Shown: positions 4,003 to 57,625 of the stretch, in pieces
Position numbering within the stretch: the first letter of the stretch is position 1
Layout: every line of letters starts with the position of its first letter
Assembly: GCA_030425385.1 (NCBI GenBank)
Contig: JAUIAH010000044.1
Coordinates: 1-61,010, forward strand
Reading direction: 5' to 3'
DNA: 61,010 nucleotides
Origin: Verrucomicrobiia bacterium
GTDB lineage: Bacteria; Verrucomicrobiota; Verrucomicrobiia; Verrucomicrobiales; DEV007
Notes under the pieces: generated by a model
What the model saw: only the letters and a program-made list of their open reading frames with translations
Database searches by the model: none
Told to the model about the DNA's origin: nothing
Made by a program: the position numbers and the translations under genes

Positions 4003-4133
4003 TGGTTTCTGCTAGGCCAGTTTCGGCCATGCGATTACCTTGATGGCTTATCCCGAGATTGCCAGGTTTTTCTTACAGACGGCAACAGGCGAATCGTGTC
4101 AAGTGCATGAAACCTTAATCCGAGACATTTCTC

Positions 4134-4976: not shown

Positions 4977-4985
4977 TTCTTGGCC

Positions 4986-8028: not shown

Positions 8029-8712
8029 TCAGAAGGACAACTGATCAGCATTAACAATGTCCGGCAACAGTTCCCGCATCAAATCAGCAATCCCTTCCTG
8101 TGGATCCGTGTTCGAAGCGATCGATTCTAACGGAGTGTCCAGCATGATGTAAGCCCACCGCTGCGCTCTACCGTGAATGAGACGGTCGACCATATCAATC
8201 TTGGTACGCTCGTAGTGGCTGTTGGTGAGTATTGAGTTTCCTACAAACAAGTAATAAATATTAGAACGCTGAGTGACCGGCTCGGCTTGTTCGGGCATTT
8301 GAATCCGCCTCTCAGTGGCCAACTCAGTCACATGAAGCGGATTTTTTTTGCCTCCGAGGTCGACAGTGATTCTAACATTTTGCGAACTAACTAGCTGTTG
8401 CCCTTGGGCGGGAAGGCAGCGTTCGGGACGGTGGATGCTTTGATTGATGTTATCGCTTGAGAGCACCATACTCACGCGGACGACTTGGCCAGTGAGGTCG
8501 TGGGTGTAGGTGCGGTTTTCGTAGGCGGCGGCTTGGAGGATGCCTTTGACTTTCTCGGAGGCCTCTTCTCTGGGACCGCCGGTCCAGTCGCCGACGAGAG
8601 GAGGGAGGTCCATGATGATGGCGCTTTCCTGAATCTTAGAATTGGCGGGGAGGAGGAAGATACTCCCTAGACCTAGGGCGAGGATGGCGTTCACCGTGAG
8701 GATGCGCTTCAT
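8029..8712 (-). CDS. EpsI-family exosortase-associated protein
   Basis: About 227 aa with an N-terminal hydrophobic anchor (ILTVNAILALGLGSIFLLP) and the EpsI/DUF3485 landmarks: LPPLVGDWTG near residue 35 and HRPERCLPAQGQ near residue 95, matching the family's H-x-P-E-x-C motif. These proteins occur next to, or fused with, exosortases and are thought to act in exopolysaccharide export or sorting at the inner membrane. The ATG at 8712 lies 14 nt after the exosortase stop, so the pair is one transcription unit. A longer frame overlapping the exosortase gene is less likely. It faces the + strand ligase gene tail-to-tail. Confidence 0.85.
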   Translation of the reverse strand: MKRILTVNAILALGLGSIFLLPANSKIQESAIIMDLPPLVGDWTGGPREEASEKVKGILQAAAYENRTYTHDLTGQVVRVSMVLSSDNINQSIHRPERCLPAQGQQLVSSQNVRITVDLGGKKNPLHVTELATERRIQMPEQAEPVTQRSNIYYLFVGNSILTNSHYERTKIDMVDRLIHGRAQRWAYIMLDTPLESIASNTDPQEGIADLMRELLPDIVNADQLSF

Positions 8713-8725
8713 TGTAGAGGGGGTG

Positions 8726-9688
8726 TTAGGCTGTGGTGGGTGCTCGTTTGACTTGGCTGGTGGTGACGCGGTGGCTGGAGGCATCGAGAAGCCGGTGGAT
8801 GAGGATGAGGCCTGCTAGGCCACATGCGAGGAAGAAGAGGAAGCCGGACCAGTCGTGGTAGACGCCGCCTGCGAATTCGGGGTCGATGTATTCGGCGATG
8901 AGAACGATGGTGGTGATGCGGAGGCTGTTGGCGATGATGGCGAGCGGGATGGTGCTGGCGAAGAGGAGGAGGCCTTTCCAGAGTTTGGTCTGGGTGGTGT
9001 AGGCGTAGACGGCTCCGACTAATGTGAGGGCCATGAGAGAGCGAAGGCCTGAACAGCCTTCGGCGACATCGAATCCCCATTTGTCGGTTGCTGACGCGAG
9101 GTTGTTTCCAGCGGCGATCATGTCGACTCCGAAGAGGGAGCCTGCGTGGTAGGCGGCTTTGGTGGCGATGAGTTGAAGGAGATTGGTGCCCTGGAGGAGT
9201 CCGGGCATTGGGACGGCGAAGTAGAAGAGGGCGATTGGGAAGAGAAAGTATTTCGCGCCTTGCCAGCCAAGTCCGTAAAGCGCGGAGCCGAAGAGGATGA
9301 AGGTGAGGGCGCCGATGGCGACACGCCATTGGATGGTGCGGACGGAGGCGATGTAGAAGAGGACGCCTAGGGTAATGAGGATGAGGCCCAGTTTGGCACC
9401 TTGCTGGGTGAGTGGGGATGCTGCAATCTTCTTTCGAGCCATCCAGAGGAGACCGACCATGATGAAGGGGATGAAGTAGGCGTGTTCGTACTCCGTTTCG
9501 CTATTCCATGCGCTTTCTAGGTGGGTGAGGGCCGATTCTTGAAGGGCAGGTCCATAGGCGAGGTGGATGCCGAAGAAGTAGACGACTAGAAAGGCCCAGA
9601 TGATGAGGAGGGCGAGCTCGAGTGGGCGCTGGGGAAGCGTTTTGAGGCGCTGGCCGAGTGTTGGCGCGGGCGAAGCTGGCTGACTCAT
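8726..9688 (-). CDS. xrt: Exosortase (PEP-CTERM type transpeptidase family)
   Basis: A 320-aa polytopic membrane protein with about eight helices. The three invariant catalytic residues are all visible: Cys212 in AEGCSGLRSL, Arg257 in NSLRIT, and His278 in YHDWSGFLFF. Exosortases are membrane cysteine transpeptidases that recognise a short C-terminal motif plus a membrane helix and basic tail on exported proteins, then cleave it. The EpsI gene follows directly. The length matches stand-alone exosortases. No substrate with a sorting tail lies in the window. The subtype cannot be fixed from sequence alone. Confidence 0.92.
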   Translation of the reverse strand: MSQPASPAPTLGQRLKTLPQRPLELALLIIWAFLVVYFFGIHLAYGPALQESALTHLESAWNSETEYEHAYFIPFIMVGLLWMARKKIAASPLTQQGAKLGLILITLGVLFYIASVRTIQWRVAIGALTFILFGSALYGLGWQGAKYFLFPIALFYFAVPMPGLLQGTNLLQLIATKAAYHAGSLFGVDMIAAGNNLASATDKWGFDVAEGCSGLRSLMALTLVGAVYAYTTQTKLWKGLLLFASTIPLAIIANSLRITTIVLIAEYIDPEFAGGVYHDWSGFLFFLACGLAGLILIHRLLDASSHRVTTSQVKRAPTTA

Positions 9689-9792
9689 GGGAGACGGTTA
9701 GCCTCGATGAACGGTGGATTCAATAGCGGGATCGTGCGCGCCAGTCATCCTGGGCTAGTAGGGATTTTGGACCTGTGGGGCTCGGACCGTGG

Positions 9793-10880
<1,088 letters not shown>

Positions 10881-10902
<22 letters not shown>

Positions 10903-41753: not shown

Positions 41754-41755
41754 TG

Positions 41756-43006: not shown

Positions 43007-43074
43007 ACGCCATTCTTCCGCGCAATCCTGGAGCGATGCAAGCCCTGGACCGTTCGGGCCAGGCGCTTAAGCGT

Positions 43075-46000
43075 CTATTTCTCCACCAAATTCAAACGCG
43101 CGAAGGGGAACCCCTGCAAGATGGCCTCAGGCGTCAGACAAATCGTCACCTCTTCTAAATCTGCATCAAGGTCACGCACCAGAGGCACATCGATCAGCGC
43201 CGGGTCATGGATCCACGTTTCCAAGTCTTTGGAAACTTCGACGTCGAATGACACGGCACCGTCGGCGTCTTTGCGACGATGGAAACAGATCGCAAAGCGA
43301 GTCTCGCCATCGCTATCCTGCACCCAATCGGTCCACAAACCTACCTGCCCGCCACGGATGGGATCCAATCCTAACAAGAACTCTTCGAAATCGGACCAAC
43401 GATCGCCATCCGCATTGACCTCTTTCCAAGAGGCATCGTCCGGAAGGAATTCACCGGCCCCCGTCGTCCCTCCTTGAGGTGGTCGAAAGCCCTCGAGCCA
43501 ATTGAGGAAAGGGGTCCGCAGTCGATCCACACCCTTATCCTCCGAGTCCGTCGGGTCAGGATCTGGATCCAGAATCACCACATCACTGCCACGGAATGTC
43601 GTTTGAGCGTAAGTTACCCCGTTTAAGCGGAATTCCACTTCATAGATTGGCCCACGCGCCGCCGCGTTCTCGGAACCAGCAAGGTTTGGCAACGGTTCCG
43701 CTCCGCTTCCATCACCCGGCCCTCCATCCACAGGGATCATCACTCCTGGGCCCACTTGCTCTGGCAATTGCACAAAGTCAACCTCTGCAGTCGTCCTCGG
43801 AATAGCTACCGCCGCCAACGGATAGACAATCGCCTCCGTACAGAACTCATTTAACCCTGGCACCCGTTGCCGATAAGACACCGTGATGATGCCATTGACG
43901 GCTTCGATGTCTTCAATCCGCACACCATAGCACCCGTTTGGCTGCGCCCCAGAGAAGACCATGACCAGGGTTTCTTCCTCAAAGTCGATCGGGTCAGGCC
44001 CAGGCAGCACGAGCGGTCCAGGCTCAAACCCAATGAAGCGCCACCATTCCTCTCGGCTCCTGATGACCACATTCGCCGGACGCTCACGCTGCAACGATAG
44101 GTCAACCTCACGGAAGTCGATCGGCTCGACCGTGTTTGATAACCTCAAGGCATAACGATGGCGCTCGTAGTAGGGAAGATCCGGCTCGCGCACAAAGGTA
44201 ATCTCGCTCGCAGTGGCTTCCAAGATAAACCGGTTTCCATCCCGCCGCACCTCTCCCCAATCCATGACCGAATGATAGGGCGCTCCAGTAAAAGCGACCT
44301 CCACCGCCGCAACGGCTGAACGATGATCATCAACTTCGACCTCAATCTGTGCTTTCGCTGGGATTGGCAAGGCCTCGCCCTCGATCTCGAACGAGGCGCG
44401 CGCATAGATCACCCCATTGATTTGAAAGACCATTGTGTAAGTTCCAGGGGCCACTTTCTGGCCCGCGAACGCAAGGTCTTCAGGAGGCCCAGCAGGTTCA
44501 CCAGGAAAGGGATCCACCGGCAATGGCGTTGGGAACGCGATCACATCTCCTTCGAAGCGAACCGGCAAGTCTGTCTTAGGAATCGCGACCATCTGCCCTG
44601 GCCGCACCCGCTCCACATCCTCAGGAAGAATGCCCGGCAAGGTATTCACATAACGGACGAACAGATAGGAACCATAGTCCGTGATCTCCTCAATGTAGGT
44701 ATCCACTCCCTGATCCGTTTCGCCCGCAAACACAGCCACCAAGGTGTAGGCCTCAAAGTCTACGGGCACCTCAACCGGCAAGGCATCCACTTCCGGTGGC
44801 CACCGATCGCTCAACCACCGTTCCCATTCGGCCTCAGATCGGAAAACCCTCTGCTCAGGCTCGAGGGGTCTTAAGAAGGAAGGGATCAGTTCGACGGTCT
44901 CAAAGTCAATCGGCCTACCCTCTCCGTTGTTTGAGTCCTCGTCGACAAGGCAATACGCATGTTCTTGCACTGTCCTCAAGGCATCCGTCTCCGCCGTCGG
45001 CAACGCTTGCGCATTGACGGTAAAGGTCTGTCCAGAAAGTACAGGCTCTCCCCAATCTACAATCTCGTAGGCACTCCCGTCGGCTGTGAGGTCGATCGCC
45101 ACCCGCACATTCCCCAACACTTTGTCCTCCTCTCGCACGATGGAGAGTTCCACCGCTGCAGGTAATTCGCTCCCACCACCATCGTCCCCAACCAAAAATC
45201 CAAAAGTCTCTATGACCTGCCCATTGATACGATAGACCAACGCGTATTTCCCAGGATCAGGTTTCCCCAAATCATGCTTCAACTCAAACCTCGACGCTTC
45301 AGGCTCTCGCACAAACACCACCGTCTGCGCAGACACATCAATAAAGTAGGTTCGATCCTGGCGTGAGACCTCCCCGTCATCCGTGAGCACGTAGAACGGA
45401 TCAGCAAACTGAATGACACTATAGGCAACCTGCCTTCCGTCATCGGTAGCCTTCACCCGCAGGCCAATCTCGGCTTCGATAGGATCATGCGCACCAGGCA
45501 CTCGAAACCGATCCCAACCCGCATCTGTCCCATTCACAGAAACGGTCAGCCCATAGAAGCCCGGTTCCAAAACACCCAAAGGATAAACCCTTTGCAACGT
45601 GGCCGGAGTCTCTAGCGAAGCCCCTTCAGCATACGCACCTTGAAAAGCAAGATGCCATTCCCCCTCCACACCACTGGCCTCCCCCCACGAGACGACATCG
45701 ATAGGCCCACGAGGAAAGCGATAGTCTACTACGGCCTGCCAAACCCCATCCGCATTCATCTCCACACTCACACCCACATGACTCGGGACCAATGGCCTAG
45801 GCTCCCCCACTGCCACCTGAAACGCACTCAGCAAGCTCGGAGGCATCACGCCTCCATACGCCAGCTCAACCGCCCCAGGCTCTAACAACACCACATATCG
45901 CCCATTCTCCGCCTCCCGCCATCCCCCTTCGGTAGGCGGTGCCACCGCATACGTCGCCTCCACCCATTCACCGATGAATTCGCCATCCGCACCAACACCA

Positions 46001-46305
46001 CCCTCAAATGGCACATCTGGGTCACCTTTGGTCTGCGTATCAATCGCAATCAACGAAGCCATTGCATTGTAGCCATTCCGGCTCACCACCCAAAGATCAT
46101 CGTCACCCAAAGTCTCCTGATCCACGGGTGCATGATACGTCACATGCAAAAGAATAGGATTCCCAGTTGCCTCATACACATCGTCAACCTCAAGAGAAGC
46201 CCCACCAATCCAAACGGGTAGGGACTCACTCCATCCAGACACCGCCGAACTCCCCAGGAGTCCCACGACCAACGAACACAACGACAAGATTCGCTTCATA
46301 CCCAA
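43075..46305 (-). CDS. Large secreted protein with Ig-like repeats and two PrcB-like domains
   Basis: 1076 aa with a signal peptide (ILSLCSLVVGLLGSSAVSG). At least three similar units contain the pattern 'PGxYxLxFxINGxxxxxxxF' (PGKYALVYRINGQV, PGTYTMVFQINGVIYARASF, YEVEFRLNGVTYAQTTF). Two stretches match the PrcB C-terminal pattern: FRSEAEWERWLSDRW...VDFEAYTLVAVFAGE and IRSREEWWRFIGFE...IDFEEETLVMVFSGA...YGVRIEDIE. The C-terminus has a Ca loop NADGDRWSDFEEFLLGLDP and SFDVEVSKDLETW, a tail seen in many verrucomicrobial secreted proteins. PrcB-type domains accompany surface proteases in other phyla. Role here unknown; binding or inhibitor function is a guess. Confidence 0.7.
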   Translation of the reverse strand: MGMKRILSLCSLVVGLLGSSAVSGWSESLPVWIGGASLEVDDVYEATGNPILLHVTYHAPVDQETLGDDDLWVVSRNGYNAMASLIAIDTQTKGDPDVPFEGGVGADGEFIGEWVEATYAVAPPTEGGWREAENGRYVVLLEPGAVELAYGGVMPPSLLSAFQVAVGEPRPLVPSHVGVSVEMNADGVWQAVVDYRFPRGPIDVVSWGEASGVEGEWHLAFQGAYAEGASLETPATLQRVYPLGVLEPGFYGLTVSVNGTDAGWDRFRVPGAHDPIEAEIGLRVKATDDGRQVAYSVIQFADPFYVLTDDGEVSRQDRTYFIDVSAQTVVFVREPEASRFELKHDLGKPDPGKYALVYRINGQVIETFGFLVGDDGGGSELPAAVELSIVREEDKVLGNVRVAIDLTADGSAYEIVDWGEPVLSGQTFTVNAQALPTAETDALRTVQEHAYCLVDEDSNNGEGRPIDFETVELIPSFLRPLEPEQRVFRSEAEWERWLSDRWPPEVDALPVEVPVDFEAYTLVAVFAGETDQGVDTYIEEITDYGSYLFVRYVNTLPGILPEDVERVRPGQMVAIPKTDLPVRFEGDVIAFPTPLPVDPFPGEPAGPPEDLAFAGQKVAPGTYTMVFQINGVIYARASFEIEGEALPIPAKAQIEVEVDDHRSAVAAVEVAFTGAPYHSVMDWGEVRRDGNRFILEATASEITFVREPDLPYYERHRYALRLSNTVEPIDFREVDLSLQRERPANVVIRSREEWWRFIGFEPGPLVLPGPDPIDFEEETLVMVFSGAQPNGCYGVRIEDIEAVNGIITVSYRQRVPGLNEFCTEAIVYPLAAVAIPRTTAEVDFVQLPEQVGPGVMIPVDGGPGDGSGAEPLPNLAGSENAAARGPIYEVEFRLNGVTYAQTTFRGSDVVILDPDPDPTDSEDKGVDRLRTPFLNWLEGFRPPQGGTTGAGEFLPDDASWKEVNADGDRWSDFEEFLLGLDPIRGGQVGLWTDWVQDSDGETRFAICFHRRKDADGAVSFDVEVSKDLETWIHDPALIDVPLVRDLDADLEEVTICLTPEAILQGFPFARLNLVEK

Positions 46306-46354: not shown

Positions 46355-47926
46355 CTAGGACCACACCCGGCTGGAGGGAGGATCAATCGTCACTCGGCCA
46401 GTCTCCTTCTCTAAATCTAAATCAGAAGATCCTTCTTCTCTCCGCTTCCGACGCCGCTTACGGCGACGCTCTTTGGCCTTCGTCATCAGACGATAACGCC
46501 CACCCAAGACCAGTAACGCCGCAAACAACAAGGCAACCGCCTCGCTTCCAAAAGGAAATTCAAAGATCGCCAAAAAAAGAATCAGAAAACAGCCCACACC
46601 CAGCCAATCGCTGAGGGGATTGGCCTTGCCATTCCATCGGCAGTATCCATACCACCACAGTGGTGTGAGTAATAACAGGGCAAAACCGACCGTACCCAAC
46701 TCTGCCCAAAACTGCACCCAGTCACAATGAGCGAACTCATAATAGGTCGGCACCCAGGCAAAGTCTTCGCCACCAGGAAAATTCACCTTATGAAACAGTT
46801 CCGGTCCTTGAAAGGTCGGATACACCTGAGAAAACGTCGCCAACCCCCATCCAAACCACGGTTTCACTTTCCCCATCGCAACCGTATCCCGAATCAGTAT
46901 CATTCGACCTGTTAGGTCGTCTGCCTGAATTTGTTCTACTTGCCTTTCCGATTTATCGAACATTCTCTCAAACTCAGGGGCCGCCGTTCGCCAACTATAC
47001 CATCCCATCCCCACGACAGCCAAAAGCATCAAGGCGACTGGCCGCAAACTGGCGCGCGCATCATTGCGAAAGCGCATTTCCCGGTAATGCAAGACCACCG
47101 TCACCAAGAGCCAGACCATCAAGAGCCCAATCAAGACCACTCCCGCTCGCGATTCCCGCAGCGGCAAGCTCAACATCATCAGGGGCGCCGAAAAGGCAAA
47201 GAATGCCGTTGGACTCTTTGGCTGCAAAAATTTGAAGCCAGCCTTCCAGTAATGATGCGCGAGCCCCACCCCCATGGCCACACTCATCATCGCAAACGCC
47301 GTCCAACAATTCTTGTAGTGGAAGCTCGCGAACGGAGCATTCCCCTCGGTCGGAAAGCGCCCAAAGAGCGCATCCGGATCCTGAAAGAAGGACCACACTC
47401 CTACAGCCGTAAGCACCAAGGTGTTCGCGAACACCACCGTGAGCCAACGCCTCAGCTCCTTTCGATCGAGCGGCATGATCGCCAATGCCAACGCGAACGC
47501 CATCACGCCACCAAAGACCAACAGATACATCCGCGTCCGTCCAACATCGGTCGTCGTGGGAGCCCATTCCACGTGCTCGACGGGAACAGCTGGATTTGAA
47601 AATCCGAGGGTATCCTTTGCCGTCTTTCCGTGGGGAGTGGTGAACGAACGTGTCCACTCCGGATTCTCAGGTTGATGGCTCGGATTGGTCAAACTGTAGA
47701 CCACCATTCCGATCCAAAGAATCCAAGGCAGTATCCGCCAAGACCAAAGCCTTGCCCGTTCGCCCGCCTCACAGGCCTGATAACTCGCAGCGAGCAAGCA
47801 AAGGCCACCACCGATCGCCACCAAATAGGGGCCCCAAGACACAGCTCCCCCAAAACACCACGAAACGAGGATCAGAAAAAACAAGCTCAACCGCGACGCC
47901 TTGAGCCAGGGGTAACGCTCAATCAT
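46355..47926 (-). CDS. O-antigen ligase/polymerase-like membrane protein (third in window)
   Basis: About 523 aa and twelve membrane helices. The Wzy/WaaL features are FASFHYKNCWTAFAMM (the 'N.n' loop), LRESRAGVVLIG (the SR-G motif) and a large periplasmic loop with GWGLATFSQVYPTFQGPE and EFAHCDWVQFWAELGTVGF, where the His in AHCDW corresponds to the catalytic His of WaaL-type enzymes. The C-terminus is a strongly basic KERRRKRRRKRREE stretch on the cytoplasmic side. ATG at 47926 is preferred to a TTG at 47965 inside the upstream terminator. It follows the exosortase/glycan operon and likely finishes the same glycan. Confidence 0.8.
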   Translation of the reverse strand: MIERYPWLKASRLSLFFLILVSWCFGGAVSWGPYLVAIGGGLCLLAASYQACEAGERARLWSWRILPWILWIGMVVYSLTNPSHQPENPEWTRSFTTPHGKTAKDTLGFSNPAVPVEHVEWAPTTTDVGRTRMYLLVFGGVMAFALALAIMPLDRKELRRWLTVVFANTLVLTAVGVWSFFQDPDALFGRFPTEGNAPFASFHYKNCWTAFAMMSVAMGVGLAHHYWKAGFKFLQPKSPTAFFAFSAPLMMLSLPLRESRAGVVLIGLLMVWLLVTVVLHYREMRFRNDARASLRPVALMLLAVVGMGWYSWRTAAPEFERMFDKSERQVEQIQADDLTGRMILIRDTVAMGKVKPWFGWGLATFSQVYPTFQGPELFHKVNFPGGEDFAWVPTYYEFAHCDWVQFWAELGTVGFALLLLTPLWWYGYCRWNGKANPLSDWLGVGCFLILFLAIFEFPFGSEAVALLFAALLVLGGRYRLMTKAKERRRKRRRKRREEGSSDLDLEKETGRVTIDPPSSRVWS

Positions 47927-47963
47927 CGACGGATTGAAGCAGCAATCCTCACTTCTGCCACAC

Positions 47964-47992
47964 AAAAAAACCCGCTAGGATCACCTAGCGGG
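47964..47992 (-). terminator. Rho-independent terminator
   Basis: A perfect 9-bp GC-rich stem CCCGCTAGG / CCTAGCGGG with a 4-nt loop is followed, on the minus strand, by seven Ts. It lies 25 nt after the stop of the exported-protein gene and separates the exosortase-linked operon from the downstream ligase-like gene. The best terminator in the window. Confidence 0.92.
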
Positions 47993-48016: not shown

Positions 48017-48814
48017 TTAGTTCACATTGGTGATCACCAGCGGCGAACCAGGCACGCCATCTGGGCCGGATCCACCGGTAGTGCCCTGAGTCTTGTTCTT
48101 GAAGAACAGCTCAAGGTCACCGTTCCCGAGTTCACGAATCGCGAGATAGTTGCCAACCAAACCGGACGCATCCTGAACCTGGTAAGCCATCCCGTCGAGA
48201 GTGAAGCCGTTGTCTTCCACAGGTCCGAGCTGGATCGAGACCGGCTGAGGCCCACCACCAAGATCAATCTGACCCTGAGCAGAAATGATCCGCCCATTAC
48301 CATCGCGAGAAACCACACGACGACGTGCATCAACCTGAGGGAGCTGGAACACGCGACCAGGCTGAGCTTCAACTCCCGCAGCGCTAGCGGTAGCAGCAGT
48401 GTGAACGTTAGCCGTAGGAAGCGTTCCGAGAGCACTGCTCACCGAACTACCTTCCTGATTGAGACTCGCAAGAAGCTCCTTGGCGCGAAGCGGAGAATAA
48501 GCCAACGCACGTTTGGCCACGTAGCCATGCATCTCCGAAGGAACATGTGCGGAGAGTGCCTTGGCAATGACAAGGCGGTACTCAACACCGAAAGATTTCA
48601 CAAGTTGGGTGAATGTGTGCTTGATCTGACGCTCAGGCGTCTTCATCGAGGTCACTTTGTCACTAGAAAGAAGCTCAACCACTTTCTCGTCAACCGAGGT
48701 GTAGAGGGCTTTCTCTTCTTGAGACCAGTTCTGAGGAAGGCTGAGGTCATCCGCCATGCCCGCGCTAAGGGGCAAAGCACACGCCGCAATGAGGGGTAGA
48801 ATAGGATTACGCAT
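48017..48814 (-). CDS. Exported protein of unknown family, last gene before the terminator
   Basis: 265 aa with a signal peptide (MRNPILPLIAACALPLSAGMA, cleavage near AGMADD). The N-terminal half is helical (QEEKALYTSVDEKVVELLSSDK; AHVPSEMHGYVAKRALAYSP); the C-terminal half is Gly/Gln-rich with beta character (DARRRVVSRDGNGRIISAQGQIDLGGGPQPVSIQLG) and ends GSPLVITNVN. There is no sorting tail, so it is not an obvious exosortase target. It follows the GT4 gene after about 108 bp and is closed by a strong terminator, which makes it the distal gene of the TPR-exosortase-TPR-GT4 operon or an independent small unit. No recognised domain. Confidence 0.75.
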   Translation of the reverse strand: MRNPILPLIAACALPLSAGMADDLSLPQNWSQEEKALYTSVDEKVVELLSSDKVTSMKTPERQIKHTFTQLVKSFGVEYRLVIAKALSAHVPSEMHGYVAKRALAYSPLRAKELLASLNQEGSSVSSALGTLPTANVHTAATASAAGVEAQPGRVFQLPQVDARRRVVSRDGNGRIISAQGQIDLGGGPQPVSIQLGPVEDNGFTLDGMAYQVQDASGLVGNYLAIRELGNGDLELFFKNKTQGTTGGSGPDGVPGSPLVITNVN

Positions 48815-48922: not shown

Positions 48923-50110
48923 TTACCAAGGCGCTTTCACCACCATTTCTGCCACTTGTTTGGCATTCGCATGGCCCTCAAAATGCACCTGGGCGAAACG
49001 AAGCCCCGCTTCCCCACGCCTCATCCGTTCTTCCGGATCTCTCAGCAACCGACGAACAGCACTCTTAAGTCCCTCAGCATCATCGGGTTCCACCCAGACT
49101 CCTCCACTGCTTTCCTCGATCCAAGCCGCCACACTGGAACGGCCAGGCACCACCCCAAGAAGGCAACGCCCCACAGCCATACTTCCCTGGAGCTTACTCG
49201 GCACCATGCACCCTTCCCACCCCCTATCCAAGGAGATGAGATGCACGTCAGCTGCTAAAAGATGCGTCATCAGACTCGCATCCTCCACGGGACCCATGAT
49301 TTCCACCGGAAATTCAGGATGCTCTTGCTGAAACATCTCAATCTCGTGCAAACGCTCCCCACGCCCACAGAACACCCACAGCGCTGGTTCACCACGACTC
49401 AGCCGAATCACTTCAAAAAACTCCCTGAACCGATGCCCAAGCCCTAGATTTCCTGAATAGAGAAAGACCACCTTGTCATCCCACCCCAGCGCCCGTCGAT
49501 AGGCTTCAGGATTACCGGTGGCGCTCTGGTCTTCACCAGACACCACCCACAAGGGCACCCAATCGACCCGCCGATGATTCAAACGACGCCGAACACGCGC
49601 GGCCATGTCTGGAGCGATGGCCATGATCCCATCGGAACGCTCCAACAGTTGCCATCCCATCCAATCCAGGCCTCGTCCCATTAACGACGCTCTGGAAACG
49701 CGCCCATGGGCAAAGATCACCTCGGGATAAAGATCCATCATCCAATCCACATGTCGCCCACCTCGCAGGCGCGTCACGACATGGGCCAAGGCTCCCAGAA
49801 AAGGTGGTGTGGTCATCGCCACTACAACTTCAGGTCGCGGAGATTCAACCATCAGCCGGAAGAAGGCCGAAATCATGTAAGTTGCAAAGTGCAGCGCTTT
49901 CCGCCATCCGCGGCCAACTCGAGTGGACCAACACACGCACACCTTGACGCCGTCTTCGCTCGTCGGCATTTCCCCACCCCCACGCCCTGGCGAACAATAC
50001 ACCGTCACTTCATGCCCGTCAGACACGAGCTGGCGGGCCAAATCCCGAGCATATCTGCCTGTCGGGGCAAAGTCTGGAGGATAATACTGGTTCAGAAGGA
50101 CAACCTTCAC
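48923..50110 (-). CDS. Glycosyltransferase family 4 (WbuB-like)
   Basis: 395 aa. Start VVLLNQYYPPDFAPTGRYARDLARQL is the classic GT4/WbuB acceptor domain loop. VVAMTTPPFLG and DWMMDLYPEV follow, then the C-terminal donor half with VFLYSGNLGLGHRF and VPSKLQGSMAVGRCLLGVVPG. It most resembles enzymes that add the second sugar to an undecaprenyl-linked acetamido sugar. ATG overlaps the upstream TPR gene by 4 nt, placing it inside the exosortase operon. This ties exosortase function to glycan assembly. Confidence 0.88.
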   Translation of the reverse strand: MKVVLLNQYYPPDFAPTGRYARDLARQLVSDGHEVTVYCSPGRGGGEMPTSEDGVKVCVCWSTRVGRGWRKALHFATYMISAFFRLMVESPRPEVVVAMTTPPFLGALAHVVTRLRGGRHVDWMMDLYPEVIFAHGRVSRASLMGRGLDWMGWQLLERSDGIMAIAPDMAARVRRRLNHRRVDWVPLWVVSGEDQSATGNPEAYRRALGWDDKVVFLYSGNLGLGHRFREFFEVIRLSRGEPALWVFCGRGERLHEIEMFQQEHPEFPVEIMGPVEDASLMTHLLAADVHLISLDRGWEGCMVPSKLQGSMAVGRCLLGVVPGRSSVAAWIEESSGGVWVEPDDAEGLKSAVRRLLRDPEERMRRGEAGLRFAQVHFEGHANAKQVAEMVVKAPW

Positions 50111-51432
50111 GGACCATCACGCAGTTGGTTAAACAGATGATCCAACTGCGCATCGTTCTTCCGATAGGGCTCTAGCCAGGCGAGTGCTGCGTCCCTCCCT
50201 TCTCCAGCCCTTAGAATGGCCGCCATCCCGGCGATGGCCAGGGGATGTTCTCGAGAAACCTCCAACCCCGACTGTCCCAACTTTCTCCCGATCACATAGC
50301 CCGTTTCCCCTTTCTGCCGCGTGAAACGGAGACCACATTGGGTCAGCAGAATCCCGCTCTTAGGTGCCCCGCCGCTCACCACCCCAAAGTGCACGCTCGC
50401 TTCGGCCGCCGCATTCTTTCGAAGCGCCCGGAGCCCGCCAACAAGGTGGCTACTCACGGGGGCTTTGCCGCTCGCCATGACTGCTGCCAAAGACGCCTCG
50501 GCCATGGGCTCCACCCCCATCAAGGGAACGTCGTAACCGGACAACTTTAGAAAAATGGGAGCCAACTCAGGGTGCCCCGGCGCCTCGCGCACGACCCTTT
50601 CCAAAACAGGCAACGATTGGGTGCCTCCAAAAGCCAGCGCCCGAAAGGCCCGTAGACTCCCTTCTACCCAACGCGCCAGCCCCTGTTCATCGCTCGCTTC
50701 CCGACGAGCCTCCGATAACTGCGCCAACACGGCTGATTCTCGACCTCGGATCGCCTCCGCCAACGCCTTGGGCAGTGTCCCCATGGACTCAAAGCCCTCC
50801 ACTACCGATTCCGCCTTTTCCCGTTCGCCTTGCGCCAAGTAGGCGAACGCCAAGAGAACCTGATCATCCGGCTGAGCACGCCCCACCGCTTCCAAGTGTC
50901 TGATGACCGCGCTCCACTGTCCCTGAGCTAGATAGCGCCCAGCCAACAACCGACGCATTCCGTTCACTTCCGTCGATCCTTTAGCCGCCAAAGCCACTTC
51001 CAAACAGCGTTCCGCTTCGTCCAGATCATGGCGCTCCAATGCCACCTCTCCACGAAAGAGAATCCCTCTCACATAACCCTCTTCCTCTAGCCGATTGAGC
51101 AACGCCTCTCGCCTTGTCTTCTCTTCCAATTGATGCGCCACCACCGCGGCCTCAAAGAGCAACGCCAGATCATCCGGCCGATCCGCCAAGGCTTTCTTAT
51201 AGAAGATAGAGGCCGCTTCTGGACGCTCATCTGCCAAGGTTCGCCGAGCCGTCATCGCATACAAATGACTCCGTTCTTGTGCCGATCGCGTATAGGCCAT
51301 CGCCACCATTCCGATCAGCCCAAGCCCAACCACGAGCCCAGGCAAGCCTAACAACATCATTGTTCGATCCCGCGTTTGCCACCACAAACGCAGGAACTCA
51401 GCGAAATCGGCCCACCAACCGCTCTTAATCAT
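50107..51432 (-). CDS. Membrane-anchored TPR protein (downstream of exosortase fusion)
   Basis: 441 aa. One N-terminal membrane helix (MMLLGLPGLVVGLGLIGMVAMAY, about residues 25-48) is followed by TPR-like helical pairs, for example RPEAASIFYKKALADRPDDLALLFEAAVVAHQ and HDLDEAERCLEVALAAKGS. The soluble part is probably periplasmic. It overlaps the exosortase gene by 8 nt upstream and the GT4 gene by 4 nt downstream. TPR modules usually mediate protein contacts, so a scaffold for the exosortase complex is plausible. Confidence 0.8.
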   Translation of the reverse strand: MIKSGWWADFAEFLRLWWQTRDRTMMLLGLPGLVVGLGLIGMVAMAYTRSAQERSHLYAMTARRTLADERPEAASIFYKKALADRPDDLALLFEAAVVAHQLEEKTRREALLNRLEEEGYVRGILFRGEVALERHDLDEAERCLEVALAAKGSTEVNGMRRLLAGRYLAQGQWSAVIRHLEAVGRAQPDDQVLLAFAYLAQGEREKAESVVEGFESMGTLPKALAEAIRGRESAVLAQLSEARREASDEQGLARWVEGSLRAFRALAFGGTQSLPVLERVVREAPGHPELAPIFLKLSGYDVPLMGVEPMAEASLAAVMASGKAPVSSHLVGGLRALRKNAAAEASVHFGVVSGGAPKSGILLTQCGLRFTRQKGETGYVIGRKLGQSGLEVSREHPLAIAGMAAILRAGEGRDAALAWLEPYRKNDAQLDHLFNQLRDGP

Positions 51433-53107
51433 GGTGCGCCAGCCCTCCCATCAGGCGCTTATAAATCTGATCTCGGAAATGCTCATATTCCTCGTGAATG
51501 TCTTTCAGTCGTGCCCCCGTCAGTTTGACATCCGAGACCACAAATACCTGCACCTGGCACACATCCAAAGCTCGCGTATCCACAAATGCTCCTTTGAACA
51601 AGTTCATATTCCTCAGAGAGAATCGCTCTTTCCAATCAGCCGCCATCACACTTTCCACCGGATCCAACACCGCTCCAGAGGTCCGGAAAAGGTCAAAGAA
51701 GAATAACCCCTGTTCCCGACTTGCCGGCCGAGAACAGCGCGCCCTCACCGTCGCCCACTTTCCGCCCTCATCCTCATCGGAAAGAATCACGCGCTCGTCC
51801 AACTGCCAACCCGACGATCGATAACAAACCGTCAGCTCATGCCATTTCCGAAAGAAATAATCCAGCGAGAACGTCGCTCGAATCTCGCCATCTCCATAGG
51901 TCCAAACCAACGAATTCTCTCCCCATACACTCCGCGAGTTTCGAGCTTTCTGATCGAAATCCACCACTTTCCATTTGGGATTCTTGGGCTGGATGGTTTC
52001 CATGGCAAACATCTCAGAAGGCTCAACCGCTGCCCGATTCACTGGCGCATTCTCAGCTCGCGATGCCATCGGTAGGAAGGCGAAACTCTGCAACAAGACC
52101 AATCCACCCAACATCACCCCTAACCCCCATCGCACCTTCAGGGGCAATCGGCGCTTCGCTACCGGCTGCTTCTCCTTCACCTCAAAATCACCGGCCTGCA
52201 ATCGGACTTGCCCAATACCGATCAATCGATTCCAACCATTCACCAACCAGTTCCGTGTCCCATACACCCCGGTTCGAATGAATCCCAAGAAGAACTCCAG
52301 ATAAGCATCGGTGCTCATCACGCCTCCCACAGCTAACAGAAAGACAAGCACGCCTGTAAGATCGTGCGGCCACCCTTCGGTTAGATCGATTCCGAACTTC
52401 AAATACGCCACGGCAATCACGCCAATCCGGATCACATTCATCACGCCCGCCCAGAACAGGCCCGCCGCCACCAGAATCAAAGCATGCATCAGGGGACGAT
52501 TCCGATACACCGCAATCACCACCGTCGCTGCTAGCATCGTCCGCAGTGAGATAATACCACTGCAGGCTTCATCGACAAAGAAAGTCTTTCCTGGATACGT
52601 CAGCACATTGCCTTCCGTCAAATGCATGCTGCCAAACAAATCCAACAATCGGCTCGCCACCGATGTCGTTATTCCCTGAAGCCATCCCATTAATTTCTCA
52701 TCGTACCCCCATGGCGGTCGAATCAAGAGCCAGCACAACACCCACAGACCGACCAAATTCTCTACCTTGCGCTCACTCGCCACACAAACCGCCACGCCTC
52801 CAAGTCCCAAGGTCAATCCCAAGGCCGCCAGAACCGGTACTTGATAGAGAATCGCGATGACCAATAACAAGATCATCGGAGTGGCTAACAGCACCACCCA
52901 TGGCCACCGCAAGGGCCGAGTGGCCATGGGGGCCTCCTGCCAACGCGACCATCCCAAGTAAGCCATCACGCCTAACAAAACTGGGAAATACTGATACTGC
53001 TCCTCGCCCCATAACCGCCCGAAGTAGCGGAACACCAATGGGGCTGTCGCCAATCCCAGCAAGATCAGCAAGATCAAATCTGGATGTCGTCGCAGCGCCG
53101 CTTTCAT
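51425..53107 (-). CDS. xrt: Exosortase with fused C-terminal EpsI-like domain (XrtU-like)
   Basis: 560 aa. Residues 1-300 form a polytopic exosortase with Cys182 in DEACSGIISL, Arg227 in NVIRIG and His248 in GWPHDLTG, matching the catalytic triad. After another helix (about 325-348) comes a periplasmic domain where H423, C428 and G433-W434 of WHELTVCYRSSGW mimic the EpsI H-x4-C-x4-GW motif. Stand-alone exosortases are about 300 aa and EpsI proteins about 220, so this is a fusion of both functions. It is flanked by overlapping TPR genes (4 nt and 8 nt). Similar long forms are known in Planctomycetota/Verrucomicrobiota; precise subtype is inferred. Confidence 0.88.
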   Translation of the reverse strand: MKAALRRHPDLILLILLGLATAPLVFRYFGRLWGEEQYQYFPVLLGVMAYLGWSRWQEAPMATRPLRWPWVVLLATPMILLLVIAILYQVPVLAALGLTLGLGGVAVCVASERKVENLVGLWVLCWLLIRPPWGYDEKLMGWLQGITTSVASRLLDLFGSMHLTEGNVLTYPGKTFFVDEACSGIISLRTMLAATVVIAVYRNRPLMHALILVAAGLFWAGVMNVIRIGVIAVAYLKFGIDLTEGWPHDLTGVLVFLLAVGGVMSTDAYLEFFLGFIRTGVYGTRNWLVNGWNRLIGIGQVRLQAGDFEVKEKQPVAKRRLPLKVRWGLGVMLGGLVLLQSFAFLPMASRAENAPVNRAAVEPSEMFAMETIQPKNPKWKVVDFDQKARNSRSVWGENSLVWTYGDGEIRATFSLDYFFRKWHELTVCYRSSGWQLDERVILSDEDEGGKWATVRARCSRPASREQGLFFFDLFRTSGAVLDPVESVMAADWKERFSLRNMNLFKGAFVDTRALDVCQVQVFVVSDVKLTGARLKDIHEEYEHFRDQIYKRLMGGLAHHD

Positions 53108-54498
53108 TCGACATTGCCGGGCACTCCCTGAGCCAATCGTCCATGCTCTCGGGCCAAGGTTTCCTGTCCCAAGCGGCGATACACGTGCGCCAACGTTTGA
53201 TGAATCGGGATGCGATTCGACACCCCAGGCAAGGCCCGCTCCAAATCCACCGCGGCCTCTTCCCAGCGCTCAAGAGCCGCCAGGATCTGGCCACGCGTCT
53301 CCAAACAATCAGCGGGCAGCATGCCTCGTTTCTCTCCCACGGCCACCGCCCGATCCAACAACTCCAGCGCTCTCTCACGCTGTGGCGGCTGCGCCATCTG
53401 CGCCAAGCCATATCCAAGATTGTTCAGCACAACCAAATTCTCCGGCTCCACTGTGGCGGCCTCTTCCAAATGCGCCAAACCGGCTTTCGTCTTTCCCAAG
53501 GCAAGCGCCAGGGCTCCCAAGGCACCCGCCATCGCCCCCCTCTCCTCCGGAAGATCACGCACCATCCGGTCATAAAGCCGACCAAACACCTCGCGGTCGG
53601 TTGCCCCGGATCCCAACGCCCCCGCCAACTCAATGAGCCGCACACGAGGCCCCACCGCTTCCCAAGCCCTCTCAAGCTGCGCCGCCACCCAGGCGCCCCC
53701 CTGGTCCCGCCCTTCCATGATGGTCCCGATCCAACTTTCCTCCAACAACGCCGTGGTCGCATCCGACCGATCCTCTAACGGTGCCAGCACCGCCCGCGCC
53801 GCTTCAAACCGATCCAATCCAATCTCCGCCTTCGCCCACGCCTCGCGCGCCGCCCGTCGTTCCTTGGGATCATGCGAATCATTCTCACACACGCCTTGGA
53901 AATGGGTCGCCGCACGCAAGGCCAGCGCACGTTGCTTCTCCTCATCGCCCAGCCTTCCGGCCAACTCTGACGCCATCAAGGCCAGCGCCGGATCCTCCTC
54001 CGCCGCCTCCTCCAGCAAGGGAAACGCCTCCCGAACCTCGCCCAAGAGCAAATGCACCTGACCCAAGACCGCGCCCGCCCGGGCGTTCCCCCCACCCGCA
54101 TGCACCCGTTGCAGATGCCCCCGCGCTCTCTCCAACCGAGCTTTCCCCGTCCATTCCTCCAGCTCCTCATGCTTCAGCAAATCCTCCGCCAGCCACCAAT
54201 GGGCCCGCAAATCTCCGCCATCATCTGACAAAGGCGCCAATGCCCGCATTGCTTCCCGCGCCTTCTCCAAGTCACCCGACTCTGCCAATGCCACTGCACG
54301 CTCCCAGCCGCCCGTCATCGATTCCTCACCTGCCACCAGCCTCGGCTCGGACGACGTCGGCCCCACCGACTTCCAAATGAACCATCCCAAGCCGCCCACC
54401 GCCCCGAGTGCCAGCACGTAAGGAAGTGATCCCGTCAGCAGCGGTTTCACTACCTCCCGAACAGACCCCAGCGAATGTTGAAATCGGCGACGCATCAC
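53104..54498 (-). CDS. Membrane-anchored TPR protein (upstream of exosortase fusion)
   Basis: 464 aa. A membrane helix (LPYVLALGAVGGLGWFIW, about residues 25-43) precedes about eight helical repeats, for example SGDLEKAREAMRALAPL, GEVREAFPLLEEAAEEDPALALMASELAGRLGD and ENLVVLNNLGYGLAQMAQPPQRERALELLDRAVAVG. The last repeats are canonical TPRs. The stop overlaps the exosortase ATG by 4 nt. It is the first gene of the four-gene overlapping set and lies 82 nt after the dehydratase gene. Its helix and repeats mirror those of the 441-aa TPR protein, but similarity is limited to the fold. Confidence 0.8.
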   Translation of the reverse strand: MMRRRFQHSLGSVREVVKPLLTGSLPYVLALGAVGGLGWFIWKSVGPTSSEPRLVAGEESMTGGWERAVALAESGDLEKAREAMRALAPLSDDGGDLRAHWWLAEDLLKHEELEEWTGKARLERARGHLQRVHAGGGNARAGAVLGQVHLLLGEVREAFPLLEEAAEEDPALALMASELAGRLGDEEKQRALALRAATHFQGVCENDSHDPKERRAAREAWAKAEIGLDRFEAARAVLAPLEDRSDATTALLEESWIGTIMEGRDQGGAWVAAQLERAWEAVGPRVRLIELAGALGSGATDREVFGRLYDRMVRDLPEERGAMAGALGALALALGKTKAGLAHLEEAATVEPENLVVLNNLGYGLAQMAQPPQRERALELLDRAVAVGEKRGMLPADCLETRGQILAALERWEEAAVDLERALPGVSNRIPIHQTLAHVYRRLGQETLAREHGRLAQGVPGNVE

Positions 54499-54580: not shown

Positions 54581-56539
54581 TCAGGCGGGATTCATTGCCA
54601 ATTTCGCCTCATCGGTGACGTCGCTTTGCTCCCCACGTGATGGTTCCGCTTTCTTCTCGCCCGTTTCCGCTAACAAATGTTCCGGAATGGCCGCCCGACA
54701 GAAGGCCCTCAAGCCATCCCGATCATACGACGCAACCAAGCGGCTCAGTTCATCCACGTCCACCCGCTCGCGCGAGCGCCGTTTCTTGGCAAATACGGCG
54801 ATCTGCTCATGCTCCGTGGGCACGACATCTTCGTCATTGGTCAATAATTCCTCGTACTCCTTCTCACCCGGTCGCAAGCCCGTGAAGACGATCTGAATGT
54901 CCTTGTCTGGCACCAATCCCGATAGCTCGATCATCCGCTTGGCAAGGTCCCAAATCTTGACGGGCTCGCCCATTTCCAGAACCATGATTTGCCGATCCTC
55001 CCCAACCACGCCCGATATCATCACCAACTGCACCGCCTCGGGGATGGTCATGAAGTAGCGACGCGTGTCCTTGGTGGTCACGGTGACCGGACCACCATCA
55101 CGGATCTGTCGATTGAAGATAGGAATCACACTCCCACTGCTCCCCAGCACATTTCCGAATCGCACCGCCACAAATCGAGTCGGCCCGGGAGCACGCTCCA
55201 ACAGCACCCGTTCGGCCAGGCGCTTGCTACAGCCCATCATGCTCGTCGGATTGACCGCCTTGTCGGTCGAGATCATGATGAATTCTTTCACCCCACAAGC
55301 CTCTGCAATCTCTGCCAAACACAACGTCCCGAAGACGTTGTTCCGCATCGCGGCGGCCGTGTTCAATTCCATCAAATGCACATGCTTGTAGGCCGCCGCG
55401 TGATAGATCACTTCAATTCCCCCCACAGATTCGATGGCGTGCCGCACGTCCCCCGCCTCGCAGATATCGCCCGTCACCGCGACAATATCCAAATCTGGAA
55501 AGCGCTGACGCAATTCCCGATCAATCTCGAACAACGCAAACTCACATTGCTCAAACAGCACCAATTTGCTCGGTGCCAAGGCCAACACCTGACGACACAA
55601 TTCCGAGCCAATACTTCCCCCAGCACCAGTCACCATCACCTGCCGACCGGAAACAAAGCGCGTCAACGCCTCGCGATCGAACCGTATTTCAGGACGATCC
55701 AACAGATCAGAAATCTCCACTTCTCGCAGTGCCGACACACTCAAGCGGCCTCCCGCGATTTCGCGAACCGAAGGCACGATCCGATAGTGGCATGAGAGTT
55801 CAGCAGCGGAGCAGGCATCCATCACCGCCTTGATCTGGCGTGGCTTTTCATGAGGCGGCAGAATCACCACCGTCTCCGGCCGCACCTCACGCACAATCGA
55901 CTCAAGTGCTTCAAAGCCCCCTAGCACGCGAGCGCCCCGAATGGTGGCATCCTGCCGAGCCGCCGTCACCACGCCCATCACCTCCCCAAGATCCTCACTC
56001 CGCAATCCCACCGTGCGGAGCAGCGAGTCCACCTCATCAATCGCCCCGACCAGAAGCACGCGACTCAAGCCCTCTTCACTCGAAACTCGCCTTCCTAGCC
56101 CATTCTTCTCCTTAAAGAAACGCACCACCATCCGACCGCCAATCTCCCACACCAAAAGCACCATCAAATGGATGAGCAACACGGATCGCGGGTAGCCTCC
56201 AAACGAAAACCCGCGCTGCCAGAAGATGGCACCAGCCAAAAGCACCGATCCCATGGCAATCGCATAGAGGTATTTGAGACAGTCCCCATAGCTGAAGTAG
56301 GACCAGAGCCCCGCATAGAGTCGGAAAGCGACCACCACGAGAAGAAACATTCCCACAGCCAAGGGAAGCGACGACCACAAGGCCTCCCATGAACTCCCTG
56401 CCATCTCGAAATCAAACCGAAGGCCAAACGCGAGCATGTAGGTCAACACAATCCCGACTACGTGCCACGCGAAGGAGACCACCCGCCGAAGCCACACGCG
56501 CTCCGACAACGCTCGTTTGAAAGCACGAACCATACTCAT
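54581..56539 (-). CDS. Membrane nucleotide-sugar 4,6-dehydratase (FlaA1/PglF/WbpM/CapD type)
   Basis: 652 aa. Four N-terminal helices, a first Rossmann-like domain (VLLVGAIDEVDSLLR), then an SDR domain with NAD loop MVTGAGGSIGSELCRQ, the family block YHAAAYKHVHLMELN, and STDKAVNPTSMMGCSKRLAE containing the active-site region. Enzymes of this group convert UDP-GlcNAc to the 4-keto-6-deoxy sugar, the first step towards bacillosamine, QuiNAc or FucNAc. With the PglC- and PglD-like genes nearby this supports an acetamido sugar as the first residue. The 245-bp gap upstream (56540-56785) contains a hairpin repeat and no gene. Confidence 0.92.
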   Translation of the reverse strand: MSMVRAFKRALSERVWLRRVVSFAWHVVGIVLTYMLAFGLRFDFEMAGSSWEALWSSLPLAVGMFLLVVVAFRLYAGLWSYFSYGDCLKYLYAIAMGSVLLAGAIFWQRGFSFGGYPRSVLLIHLMVLLVWEIGGRMVVRFFKEKNGLGRRVSSEEGLSRVLLVGAIDEVDSLLRTVGLRSEDLGEVMGVVTAARQDATIRGARVLGGFEALESIVREVRPETVVILPPHEKPRQIKAVMDACSAAELSCHYRIVPSVREIAGGRLSVSALREVEISDLLDRPEIRFDREALTRFVSGRQVMVTGAGGSIGSELCRQVLALAPSKLVLFEQCEFALFEIDRELRQRFPDLDIVAVTGDICEAGDVRHAIESVGGIEVIYHAAAYKHVHLMELNTAAAMRNNVFGTLCLAEIAEACGVKEFIMISTDKAVNPTSMMGCSKRLAERVLLERAPGPTRFVAVRFGNVLGSSGSVIPIFNRQIRDGGPVTVTTKDTRRYFMTIPEAVQLVMISGVVGEDRQIMVLEMGEPVKIWDLAKRMIELSGLVPDKDIQIVFTGLRPGEKEYEELLTNDEDVVPTEHEQIAVFAKKRRSRERVDVDELSRLVASYDRDGLRAFCRAAIPEHLLAETGEKKAEPSRGEQSDVTDEAKLAMNPA

Positions 56540-56785: not shown

Positions 56786-57625
56786 CTACTCCAGCGAAGC
56801 TGGATCCACCCCCAAAACCCTCAGTCGCTCCGCCAACTGCTCTGCCCGAGCCATGGCCACCTCCTTCTCGCGAAGCACCGAATCCCGCTCGCGAACCACC
56901 GAATCCCGCTCGCGAATCGCCTCCTCCAAGGCATCATCCGCCTCCGATGGCGTCAAAAACACCTTCCCATCCGGCCGCGTCACCACCAGATGCGCTCCCT
57001 CCAACCCAAACCGCACCCCACACAACGGACTCTGCCATCCCTCCGTATCCGCAATCGCCTCCAACTTACCCGTCTCTCCATCGCGCAACCACCCCTCAAA
57101 CACCCCCGCATCCGGATCGTAAACATAATACTCCTCCACCCCATAACGCTCATACGCCTCCCACTTTCGCCGCATCTCCCGCACCGTATTTCCGGGCGAC
57201 ATCACCTCAAACACCACATTCGGTGGCTGCCCATTCTCCCGCCACTGCAAATACGATCCCCGATCCCCAGGCGGTCGTCCAAACGCAATCATCACATCCG
57301 GCGCATACCGCGTCTTCGCATCCCCCTCCACCGGATACCAAAGCAAATCCCCCGCCACAAACACATCATCCCGATCCTTATACAACGCATCAAAGCCACC
57401 CTTCAGCGTCGCGATATACCGAAACTGTTTCGTATTATCCGCCATCGGCTTCCCATCAGACTCCGGATACACCACCGCCTCCACAGGCTTCGGCACCATC
57501 CGTTCAACCTCAAGTATCGTCGGGGGCATCTCAGAACCTACCTTAACCCTCTTCATCCGCAAATTAACTCCATCGTAGGAAATCTGCATGTTGAACATGT
57601 GATACTCCGAGAGAAGCGAGGCCAT
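56786..57625 (-). CDS. Uma2-family putative nuclease (PD-(D/E)XK-like), copy 1
   Basis: Up to 279 aa. The Uma2/DUF820 pattern is clear: YAPDVMIAFG (putative metal Asp), NVVFEVMSPGNT (Glu) and RKWEAYERYGVEEYYVYDPD (Lys/Tyr block). Family members have a restriction-endonuclease-like fold with unknown substrates and often multiply in genomes. I count about eight differences in roughly 585 bp shared with copy 2. The C-terminus carries a tandem heptad expansion (RERDSVV, RERDSVL, REKEVAM) absent from copy 2, forming a longer coiled coil. Starts at 57625, 57556 or 57529 are possible; conservation with copy 2 extends upstream of 57529. Confidence 0.82.
   Translation of the reverse strand: MASLLSEYHMFNMQISYDGVNLRMKRVKVGSEMPPTILEVERMVPKPVEAVVYPESDGKPMADNTKQFRYIATLKGGFDALYKDRDDVFVAGDLLWYPVEGDAKTRYAPDVMIAFGRPPGDRGSYLQWRENGQPPNVVFEVMSPGNTVREMRRKWEAYERYGVEEYYVYDPDAGVFEGWLRDGETGKLEAIADTEGWQSPLCGVRFGLEGAHLVVTRPDGKVFLTPSEADDALEEAIRERDSVVRERDSVLREKEVAMARAEQLAERLRVLGVDPASLE
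56868..56909. repeat. 21-bp tandem repeat coding for a heptad
   Basis: Two full 21-bp units, TCGCGAAGCACCGAATCCCGC and its one-base variant, followed by the start of a third. They encode the seven-residue RERDSV-type unit at the C-terminus of Uma2 copy 1. In-register repeats of this kind expand or contract by slippage. Confidence 0.88.

Follow-up and report, generated by a model that had tools for sequence, protein, structure and literature searches.

The DNA analysed here, which we call the window, is a stretch of 61,010 nucleotides from a Verrucomicrobiia bacterium (contig JAUIAH010000044.1). On its minus strand we observe four open reading frames (ORFs) with successive overlaps of 4, 8 and 4 nt, encoding an exosortase of the XrtU family between two tetratricopeptide repeat (TPR) proteins, TPR1 and TPR2, followed by a family 4 glycosyltransferase (GT4). 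An earlier note on this DNA had located the four genes and their overlaps correctly and had taken them as one unit; we find that the TPR genes are conserved exosortase partners but that the GT4 gene is not conserved with them. The region is an exosortase U module within a sugar-polymer gene cluster of the exopolysaccharide (EPS) or O-antigen type. In order of transcription, the four genes are:

53104..54498, minus strand: TPR1, 464 aa, GTG start; TPR_2 (30.5 bits), TPR_14 (27 bits) and TPR_8 (26.4 bits) matches, all above the Pfam cut-off; predicted N-terminal anchor; upstream partner in the TPR1-XrtU-TPR2 locus form
51425..53107, minus strand: XrtU (exosortase U), 560 aa, ATG start; core at about 15-264, helix at about 329-347, XrtU_C (EpsI-like) domain at 376-551
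50107..51432, minus strand: TPR2, 441 aa, ATG start; one N-terminal helix; downstream partner of XrtU
48923..50110, minus strand: GT4-family glycosyltransferase, WcaI-like, 395 aa, GTG start; outside the conserved module

The exosortase exceeds curated cut-offs with both of its parts: the C-terminal domain matches NCBIfam exosortase U (NF033780, XrtU_C domain) with 126.2 bits against a cut-off of 40, and the eight-transmembrane EpsH core matches TIGR02602 with 114.2 bits (cut-off 105.55) and PF09721 with 122.8 bits (cut-off 25.7). Cys182, Arg227 and His248, which we take from the literature to be the exosortase catalytic set, are intact, as the earlier note had stated for this 560-aa protein, and align with the same residues of relatives. 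A predicted membrane helix (329-347) lies ahead of the C-terminal domain, which is marked by an H423/C428/G433-W434 motif. This motif, also called in the note, is present, and among aligned XrtU proteins H423 is conserved in 30/30 and C428 in 29/30.

The protein had further been described as an exosortase/EpsI fusion. An EpsI-like motif domain is present, but the fusion type was already known, having been reported for EpsH and EpsI in 2006 (in the part of PMC1569441 available to us) and being modelled by NF033780. The window protein shares with the EpsH/EpsI and XrtA-PEP-CTERM systems (TIGR02602, TIGR02914) the exosortase core, the H-C-GW motif and a sugar-polymer context. It differs from them in that its fused domain has no direct match to the EpsI models TIGR02914 and PF11984 at E 0.01, and the split exosortase/EpsI pair of the window is a separate locus (8029-9688). 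Profile comparison of XrtU_C with EpsI by hhalign gave a probability of 74.7 and E 2.6e-5 over 169 columns with the H..C..GW motif aligned, a value at the limit of detection.

A full-length model of XrtU was poor (predicted local distance difference test, pLDDT, 50.7; predicted template modelling score, pTM, 0.38; 4 sequences), so the C-terminal domain was modelled alone (pLDDT 71.5, pTM 0.77), yielding a sheet and a long C-terminal helix. Compared with known structures by VIA, this model found SciW first (Z 8.7, root-mean-square deviation 3.3, 119 aligned positions) and PsbP, Mog1 and LpqN at Z 7-8, hits that would suit a Mog1/PsbP/DcrB-like fold; a best Z of 7-8 is typical for models without a clear match, and XrtU_C scores near that level. 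Top Foldseek rows were mostly START/Bet v 1-type proteins at E 0.01-0.1. The two methods point to different fold groups, with scores near background for both readings. Many proteins of the START/Bet v 1 type and of the SciW/PsbP/Mog1/LpqN type are binding proteins, and the SciW structure entry is titled as bound to a transmembrane domain. The predicted fold may hint at a likeness to binding proteins; with scores near those of models without true matches, we treat it only as a lead. No solved structural relative of XrtU_C was found by sequence at E 1, and the viral library gave no match at E 0.001.

TPR genes as partners of XrtU

Our survey covered the neighbourhoods of 39 XrtU genes from 33 genomes, with the search kept within Verrucomicrobiota (row L002, on the same contig as locus L101, was dropped, and L001 is the contig of L040). 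XrtU_C was present in 32/386 genomes of the order and in 5/387 genomes sampled across the phylum, 3 of these above the cut-off. In 36 of 39 cases XrtU is directly followed by a gene whose start lies anywhere from 17 nt before to 24 nt past the XrtU end and whose product has a predicted N-terminal helix; the two genes overlap in 25/39, by exactly 4 nt in 23/39. The three exceptions are L040@8106, where MurJ comes next, 143 nt on; L054, followed by a 713-aa protein without a helix; and L035, whose TPR2-like gene lies ~970 nt downstream.

TPR_19 matched 31 of the 39 proteins scanned as downstream partners, namely the 38 next genes found (including MurJ and the non-TPR-looking L054 protein) and, from L035, the TPR2-like protein that is encoded further away. 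In a control of 100 genes of 300-620 aa picked at random from these loci, no TPR family had more than 3 matches, with at least one gene matching. Among 39 ORFs beside 20 non-XrtU exosortases, some of them perhaps spurious, TPR_19 matched 2 and EpsI/DUF3485 matched 12. The matches themselves are modest: TPR2 passes TPR_19 (30.7 bits, cut-off 25) and TPR_14, and TPR1 passes the three families given above. Both proteins had been called single-helix TPR proteins, which is so for TPR2 (helix 25-43), but the helix of TPR1 falls under the hydropathy threshold in the window copy; its homologue in L101 has one at 17-35. TPR1 homologues lie upstream of XrtU in L101, L040, L035, L097, L094, L091 and L092.

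Distances among XrtU proteins and among their partners correlate with r = 0.965 over 36 gene pairs (L054, L052 and L040@8106 left out), a value inflated by shared species history. Four genomes carry two XrtU genes, and the partners of the two copies are only 15-23% identical to each other but, where compared, 70-91% identical to their counterparts in other genomes; between the window and L101 the value is 33%. Within the window's family, TPR2 occurs in 3/3 XrtU-bearing and 0/7 XrtU-less genomes, and in the window genome TPR2 matches (E 0.001) lie exclusively at the two XrtU loci. XrtU and the TPR genes are genuine partners, in a pairing that is conserved and co-inherited and less frequent beside other exosortases. 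The earlier note had named conservation of the TPR genes beside such exosortases in relatives as the test of its operon, and for the TPR pairing this conservation holds. Short gene overlaps are frequent in operons and are weak evidence alone, and the presence of the GT4 gene is variable, both of which speak for a chance packing of unrelated envelope genes. The controls contradict such a packing for XrtU and TPR2; it stands for GT4 alone, and for the set as a whole it is extremely improbable.

A TPR protein linked to an exosortase system has a precedent in PrsT (TIGR02917), the TPR lipoprotein of proteobacterial PEP-CTERM systems; according to the available part of PMC1569441, kinase/regulator genes lie in tandem with the PrsT gene in 4/13 and near EpsH in 3/13. 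The window proteins differ from PrsT in scoring far under its equivalog cut-off of 312.2 bits (TPR1 34.8, TPR2 23.2) and in being encoded adjacent to the exosortase. By eye, neither has a Cys in its N-terminal region and thus neither has a lipobox, unlike PrsT.

Tailed neighbours and a proposed sorting module

XrtU loci take two main forms: a PEP-tailed protein followed by XrtU and a TPR gene (17/39), and TPR1-XrtU-TPR2 (13/39), which is the form of the window. A PEP-like tail, defined by a motif, a helix and a basic end, is encoded just upstream of XrtU in 17/39 cases, compared with 6/621 other mechanically called ORFs of 150-400 aa in the fetched loci (23/638 including the 17). An upstream TPR gene is found in the window, L101, L035, L044, L054 (weak), L090-L094, L097 and before both XrtU genes of L040; the contig of L093 holds only the end of it. 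The remaining nine have neither form (L032, L041-L043, L049, L051-L053) or, for L095, are unreadable at a contig edge. In L032 a broken remnant of a tailed protein lies upstream.

PEP-CTERM matches occur in all 33 XrtU genomes, and 31/33 have at least one exosortase match besides XrtU. The window genome, of 8.0 Mb with the window as contig 64, has 34 PEP-CTERM tails at E 0.01 or better and five exosortase matches, two of which are XrtU. Its second XrtU, in L045 (6921-11735), is of the PEP form: directly before it lies an ORF, called at 323 aa, whose product ends in an unusual PEP-like tail, and after it comes a TPR partner of its own. A further TPR gene lies just upstream on the opposite strand. 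At L103 (9420-11679 of the reoriented stretch), another exosortase gene of this genome overlaps tail-to-tail with a convergent gene whose product ends in a PEP-CTERM tail. A dedicated PEP-tailed substrate of the window XrtU was sought beside it and none is adjacent; the neighbouring 265-aa protein lacks such a tail.

On balance, we consider it probable that the locus encodes an active sorting module with dedicated TPR partners. XrtU would be a polytopic membrane cysteine protease/transpeptidase with a Cys-Arg-His site, its EpsI-like C-terminal domain most likely lying outside the cytoplasmic membrane. TPR1 and TPR2 would be anchored at their N termini with their TPR domains most likely on the same outer side, where a TPR domain most likely docks on the C-terminal domain of XrtU and would bring to it a tail-bearing substrate or, at this locus, the polymer machinery. 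XrtU would then cut the PEP-like C-terminal tail and pass the protein to a putative acceptor.

Several observations weigh against this reading. On the substrate side, the count of 17/39 tailed neighbours rests on the motif pattern, and the Pfam PEP-CTERM model at E 0.01 passes 8 of 36 upstream proteins (38 ORFs less the two short ones of L049 and L051, with none for L095). Pfam does not recognise the L045 tailed protein, XrtU is without an adjacent tailed substrate in the window, L101 and L040@8106, and the 34 PEP-CTERM tails of the window genome could be served by its four further exosortases, which include the second XrtU. On the partner side, Pfam finds no TPR in the partners of L041, L042, L043 and L092; by eye, the L092 partner resembles those of L090 and L091 next to it. 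When ten upstream TPR proteins were scanned one by one, each had a TPR model match at E 0.01 and 6/10 passed a cut-off (L091, L093, L094 and L054 fall under it). Some partners have two hydrophobic stretches. The charge bias around the partner helix, plain in six partners of the His-less sister clade described below (12-15 K/R before the helix, 1-4 after), is equivocal for many others, the window copy (4 before, 3 after) among them. Additionally, a fused exosortase of genome G466 that the XrtU search did not report (L148, ~2600-6013) has a 4-nt overlap with the next gene downstream, whose 610-aa product is weakly TPR-like, so TPR partnership may extend beyond XrtU. Finally, the sister clade keeps TPR1-XrtU-TPR2 without the catalytic His, and the module can therefore exist without it.

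The sugar-polymer neighbourhood

GT4 is closest to the WcaI group, matching nearly the whole length of NF007640 yet with 130.5 bits against a cut-off of 276. Among 41 stretches searched, the window is the only one with this gene directly after the TPR partner (L032 and L052 end too early to judge); the other two homologues both lie upstream of XrtU, just upstream of TPR1 in L094 (249 bits) and further upstream in L035 (90 bits). The relative L101 (contig JANQJH010000568.1) has the dehydratase, TPR1, XrtU, TPR2, 265-aa protein and O-antigen ligase-like protein in the same order without GT4. The GT4 gene belongs to the sugar-polymer context, outside the conserved module. The earlier note had proposed that all four genes form one complex moving sorted proteins onto a lipid-linked glycan made with GT4. 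The gene overlaps, the O-antigen ligase-like gene nearby, also in L101, and the L094 homologue fit this idea, but the absence of GT4 from the same operon of L101 and from the position after the partner in every other judged stretch makes it very unlikely, and none of our results speaks directly for a transfer to glycan. The neighbouring features, with the split exosortase pair for comparison, are:

54581..56539, minus strand: CapD-type nucleotide-sugar dehydratase, 652 aa; PF02719 356 bits; same position in L101, 987 bits to the window copy
48017..48814, minus strand: 265-aa secreted-looking protein, family unassigned; L101 homologue at 195 bits; Pfam and NCBIfam without a match at E 0.01, translation without a PEP-like tail
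46355..47965, minus strand: O-antigen ligase/polymerase-like protein (Wzy_C); PF04932 60.1 bits; L101 homologue 564 bits
59418..60026, minus strand: protein with a polyprenyl glycosylphosphotransferase domain, in the same sugar-polymer cluster; TIGR03025 233.6 bits, below the cut-off of 295.55
8726..9688, minus strand: ordinary (second) exosortase, outside the module; TIGR02602 144 bits (cut-off 105.55); Cys, Arg and His intact
8029..8784, minus strand: separate EpsI overlapping the ordinary exosortase; TIGR02914 54.5 bits (cut-off 42.8)
9793-10929, minus strand: UDP-galactopyranose mutase gene, adjoining the ordinary exosortase/EpsI pair (8029-10929)

Split and fused exosortase arrangements are thus both present in the window, ~42 kb apart. 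The note's account of the fused gene had not included the ordinary exosortase with its EpsI, the second XrtU with a PEP-like neighbour or the relatives lacking a catalytic residue. Between the dehydratase and an ElyC-like gene lie two near-alike tandem genes (56786-57625 and 57831-58562, minus strand), which presumably resemble Uma2-type proteins. Downstream of the cluster (38496-46305, minus strand) are genes for large FG-GAP/ASPIC or PrcB_C domain proteins and an acyltransferase.

XrtU copies without the catalytic histidine

His248 is absent from 10 of the 39 XrtU proteins (L035, L044, L090-L095, L097 and L040@5112), which have G, L, V, E or R at this position. A TPR gene lies upstream of nine of them, and the tenth (L095) is at a contig edge. 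Since the NF033780 model covers the C-terminal domain alone, it takes in members whose core misses a catalytic residue, and the five His-less proteins tested all pass the XrtU_C model. On the core model TIGR02602, three of the five score 36-53 bits and two (L044, L097) are unreported at E 1e-6, compared with 73, 85 and 114 bits for three intact XrtU, two of which are themselves under the 105.55 cut-off. The core of L044 (8489-10300, genome G009) is so diverged that PF09721 is unreported at E 0.001, while its C-terminal domain passes the XrtU model. It is unlikely that these proteins are still active through another residue with an unchanged mechanism. Cys182 is kept in 9/10 and Arg227 in 8/10, and L093-L095 have a His a few residues further on, which speaks for such activity. 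Against it, the position varies as if unconstrained, Cys is lost in L044 and Arg in L040@5112 and L035, and the core scores are low. Also against it, of 18 non-XrtU exosortases taken from genomes with XrtU, 9 of them from genomes with a His-less XrtU, 17 have Cys, Arg and His and the other (L117) is a row in the wrong frame.

In the tree, nine of the ten His-less proteins form one clade (100/98), which groups with L045, L040@5112 and the trio that holds the window XrtU as a clade of 14 (100/100). His loss requires a minimum of two changes on this tree, which has long branches; the tree gives one to two independent pairs for His loss against the TPR1 form, for which we claim no statistical independence. 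The His-less modules come from two Verrucomicrobiota families and, as one separate copy, from the window's genus, to which genomes G098 (with L040) and G489 belong. In G098, L040 (1752-10100 of the reoriented stretch) has its two XrtU genes in series with TPR genes: a TPR2-like gene and TPR1 come before the His-less XrtU, and one more TPR gene separates it from the intact copy. A small ORF ahead of the series looks like an acyl carrier protein (named by eye).

The two parts of the protein are conserved differently along these branches. Comparing 7 of the 9 sister-clade members, we find higher similarity in the C-terminal domain than in the core for 21/21 pairs (0.45 vs 0.29). A set of 15 other intact XrtU has the core ahead on average (0.37 vs 0.335) and the C-terminal domain ahead in 24/105 pairs, and in the window trio with L045 the core is more alike in 6/6 pairs (0.55 vs 0.44). 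The separate copy L040@5112, when set against the window group, lacks the shift (core 0.36, C-terminal domain 0.28); it has Ser at the C428 position, and its His loss could be recent. A polyprenyl glycosylphosphotransferase homologue follows TPR2 in 8/9 sister-clade loci; of the PEP-form loci, three (L046-L048) carry such a homologue a few genes further along. The shift in constraint is the strongest sign, and suggests that the main His-less branch, in which Cys is mostly kept, does something other than sorting; it has probably come to serve polymer assembly without catalysis.

We weighed whether the main role of TPR1-XrtU-TPR2 in general, also in the window, is in building the sugar polymer at the membrane, with the core as a scaffold and the EpsI-like domain doing the work. 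The upstream TPR genes of the His-less copies, the constraint shift and the glycosylphosphotransferase homologues of the sister clade, and the missing tailed neighbour in the window argue for it. The window trio, however, retains Cys, Arg and His, its core is the more conserved part, which fits a working sortase, and His-less L040@5112 shows no shift. We consider this explanation fairly unlikely and continue to favour the active sorting module for the window copy. For the His-less branch, a fuller statement comes a little short of an even chance: that a branch of the exosortases ceased to be a sortase and is now a non-catalytic, membrane-bound station of exopolysaccharide assembly, with the window's active copy as its close sister, in which case the conserved task of EpsI-like domains would be binding rather than catalysis. 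If this is true, the target bound would be a transmembrane tail, a lipid-linked glycan or the TPR partner.

Sorting the dozens of PEP-CTERM surface proteins of many environmental bacteria is generally ascribed to exosortases; to our knowledge, their acceptor, their partners and the function of EpsI are not settled. Our literature search, whose coverage excluded most subscription journals, found no paper on XrtU, and none of the titles listed concerned inactive exosortases or a TPR partner of XrtU. The available part of PMC1569441 links the EpsH system to EPS and gives EpsI as without known function as of 2006, and the available part of PMC12188702 contains no information on EpsI. The XrtU family is thus catalogued but apparently uncharacterised, and its two locus forms and its His-less branch are the unexpected part. 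Some of the proteins annotated as 'exosortase U' may not be sortases, and a near-fixed partner gene together with natural His-less copies offers a direct way to separate cutting from the role of the EpsI-like domain and the TPR proteins.

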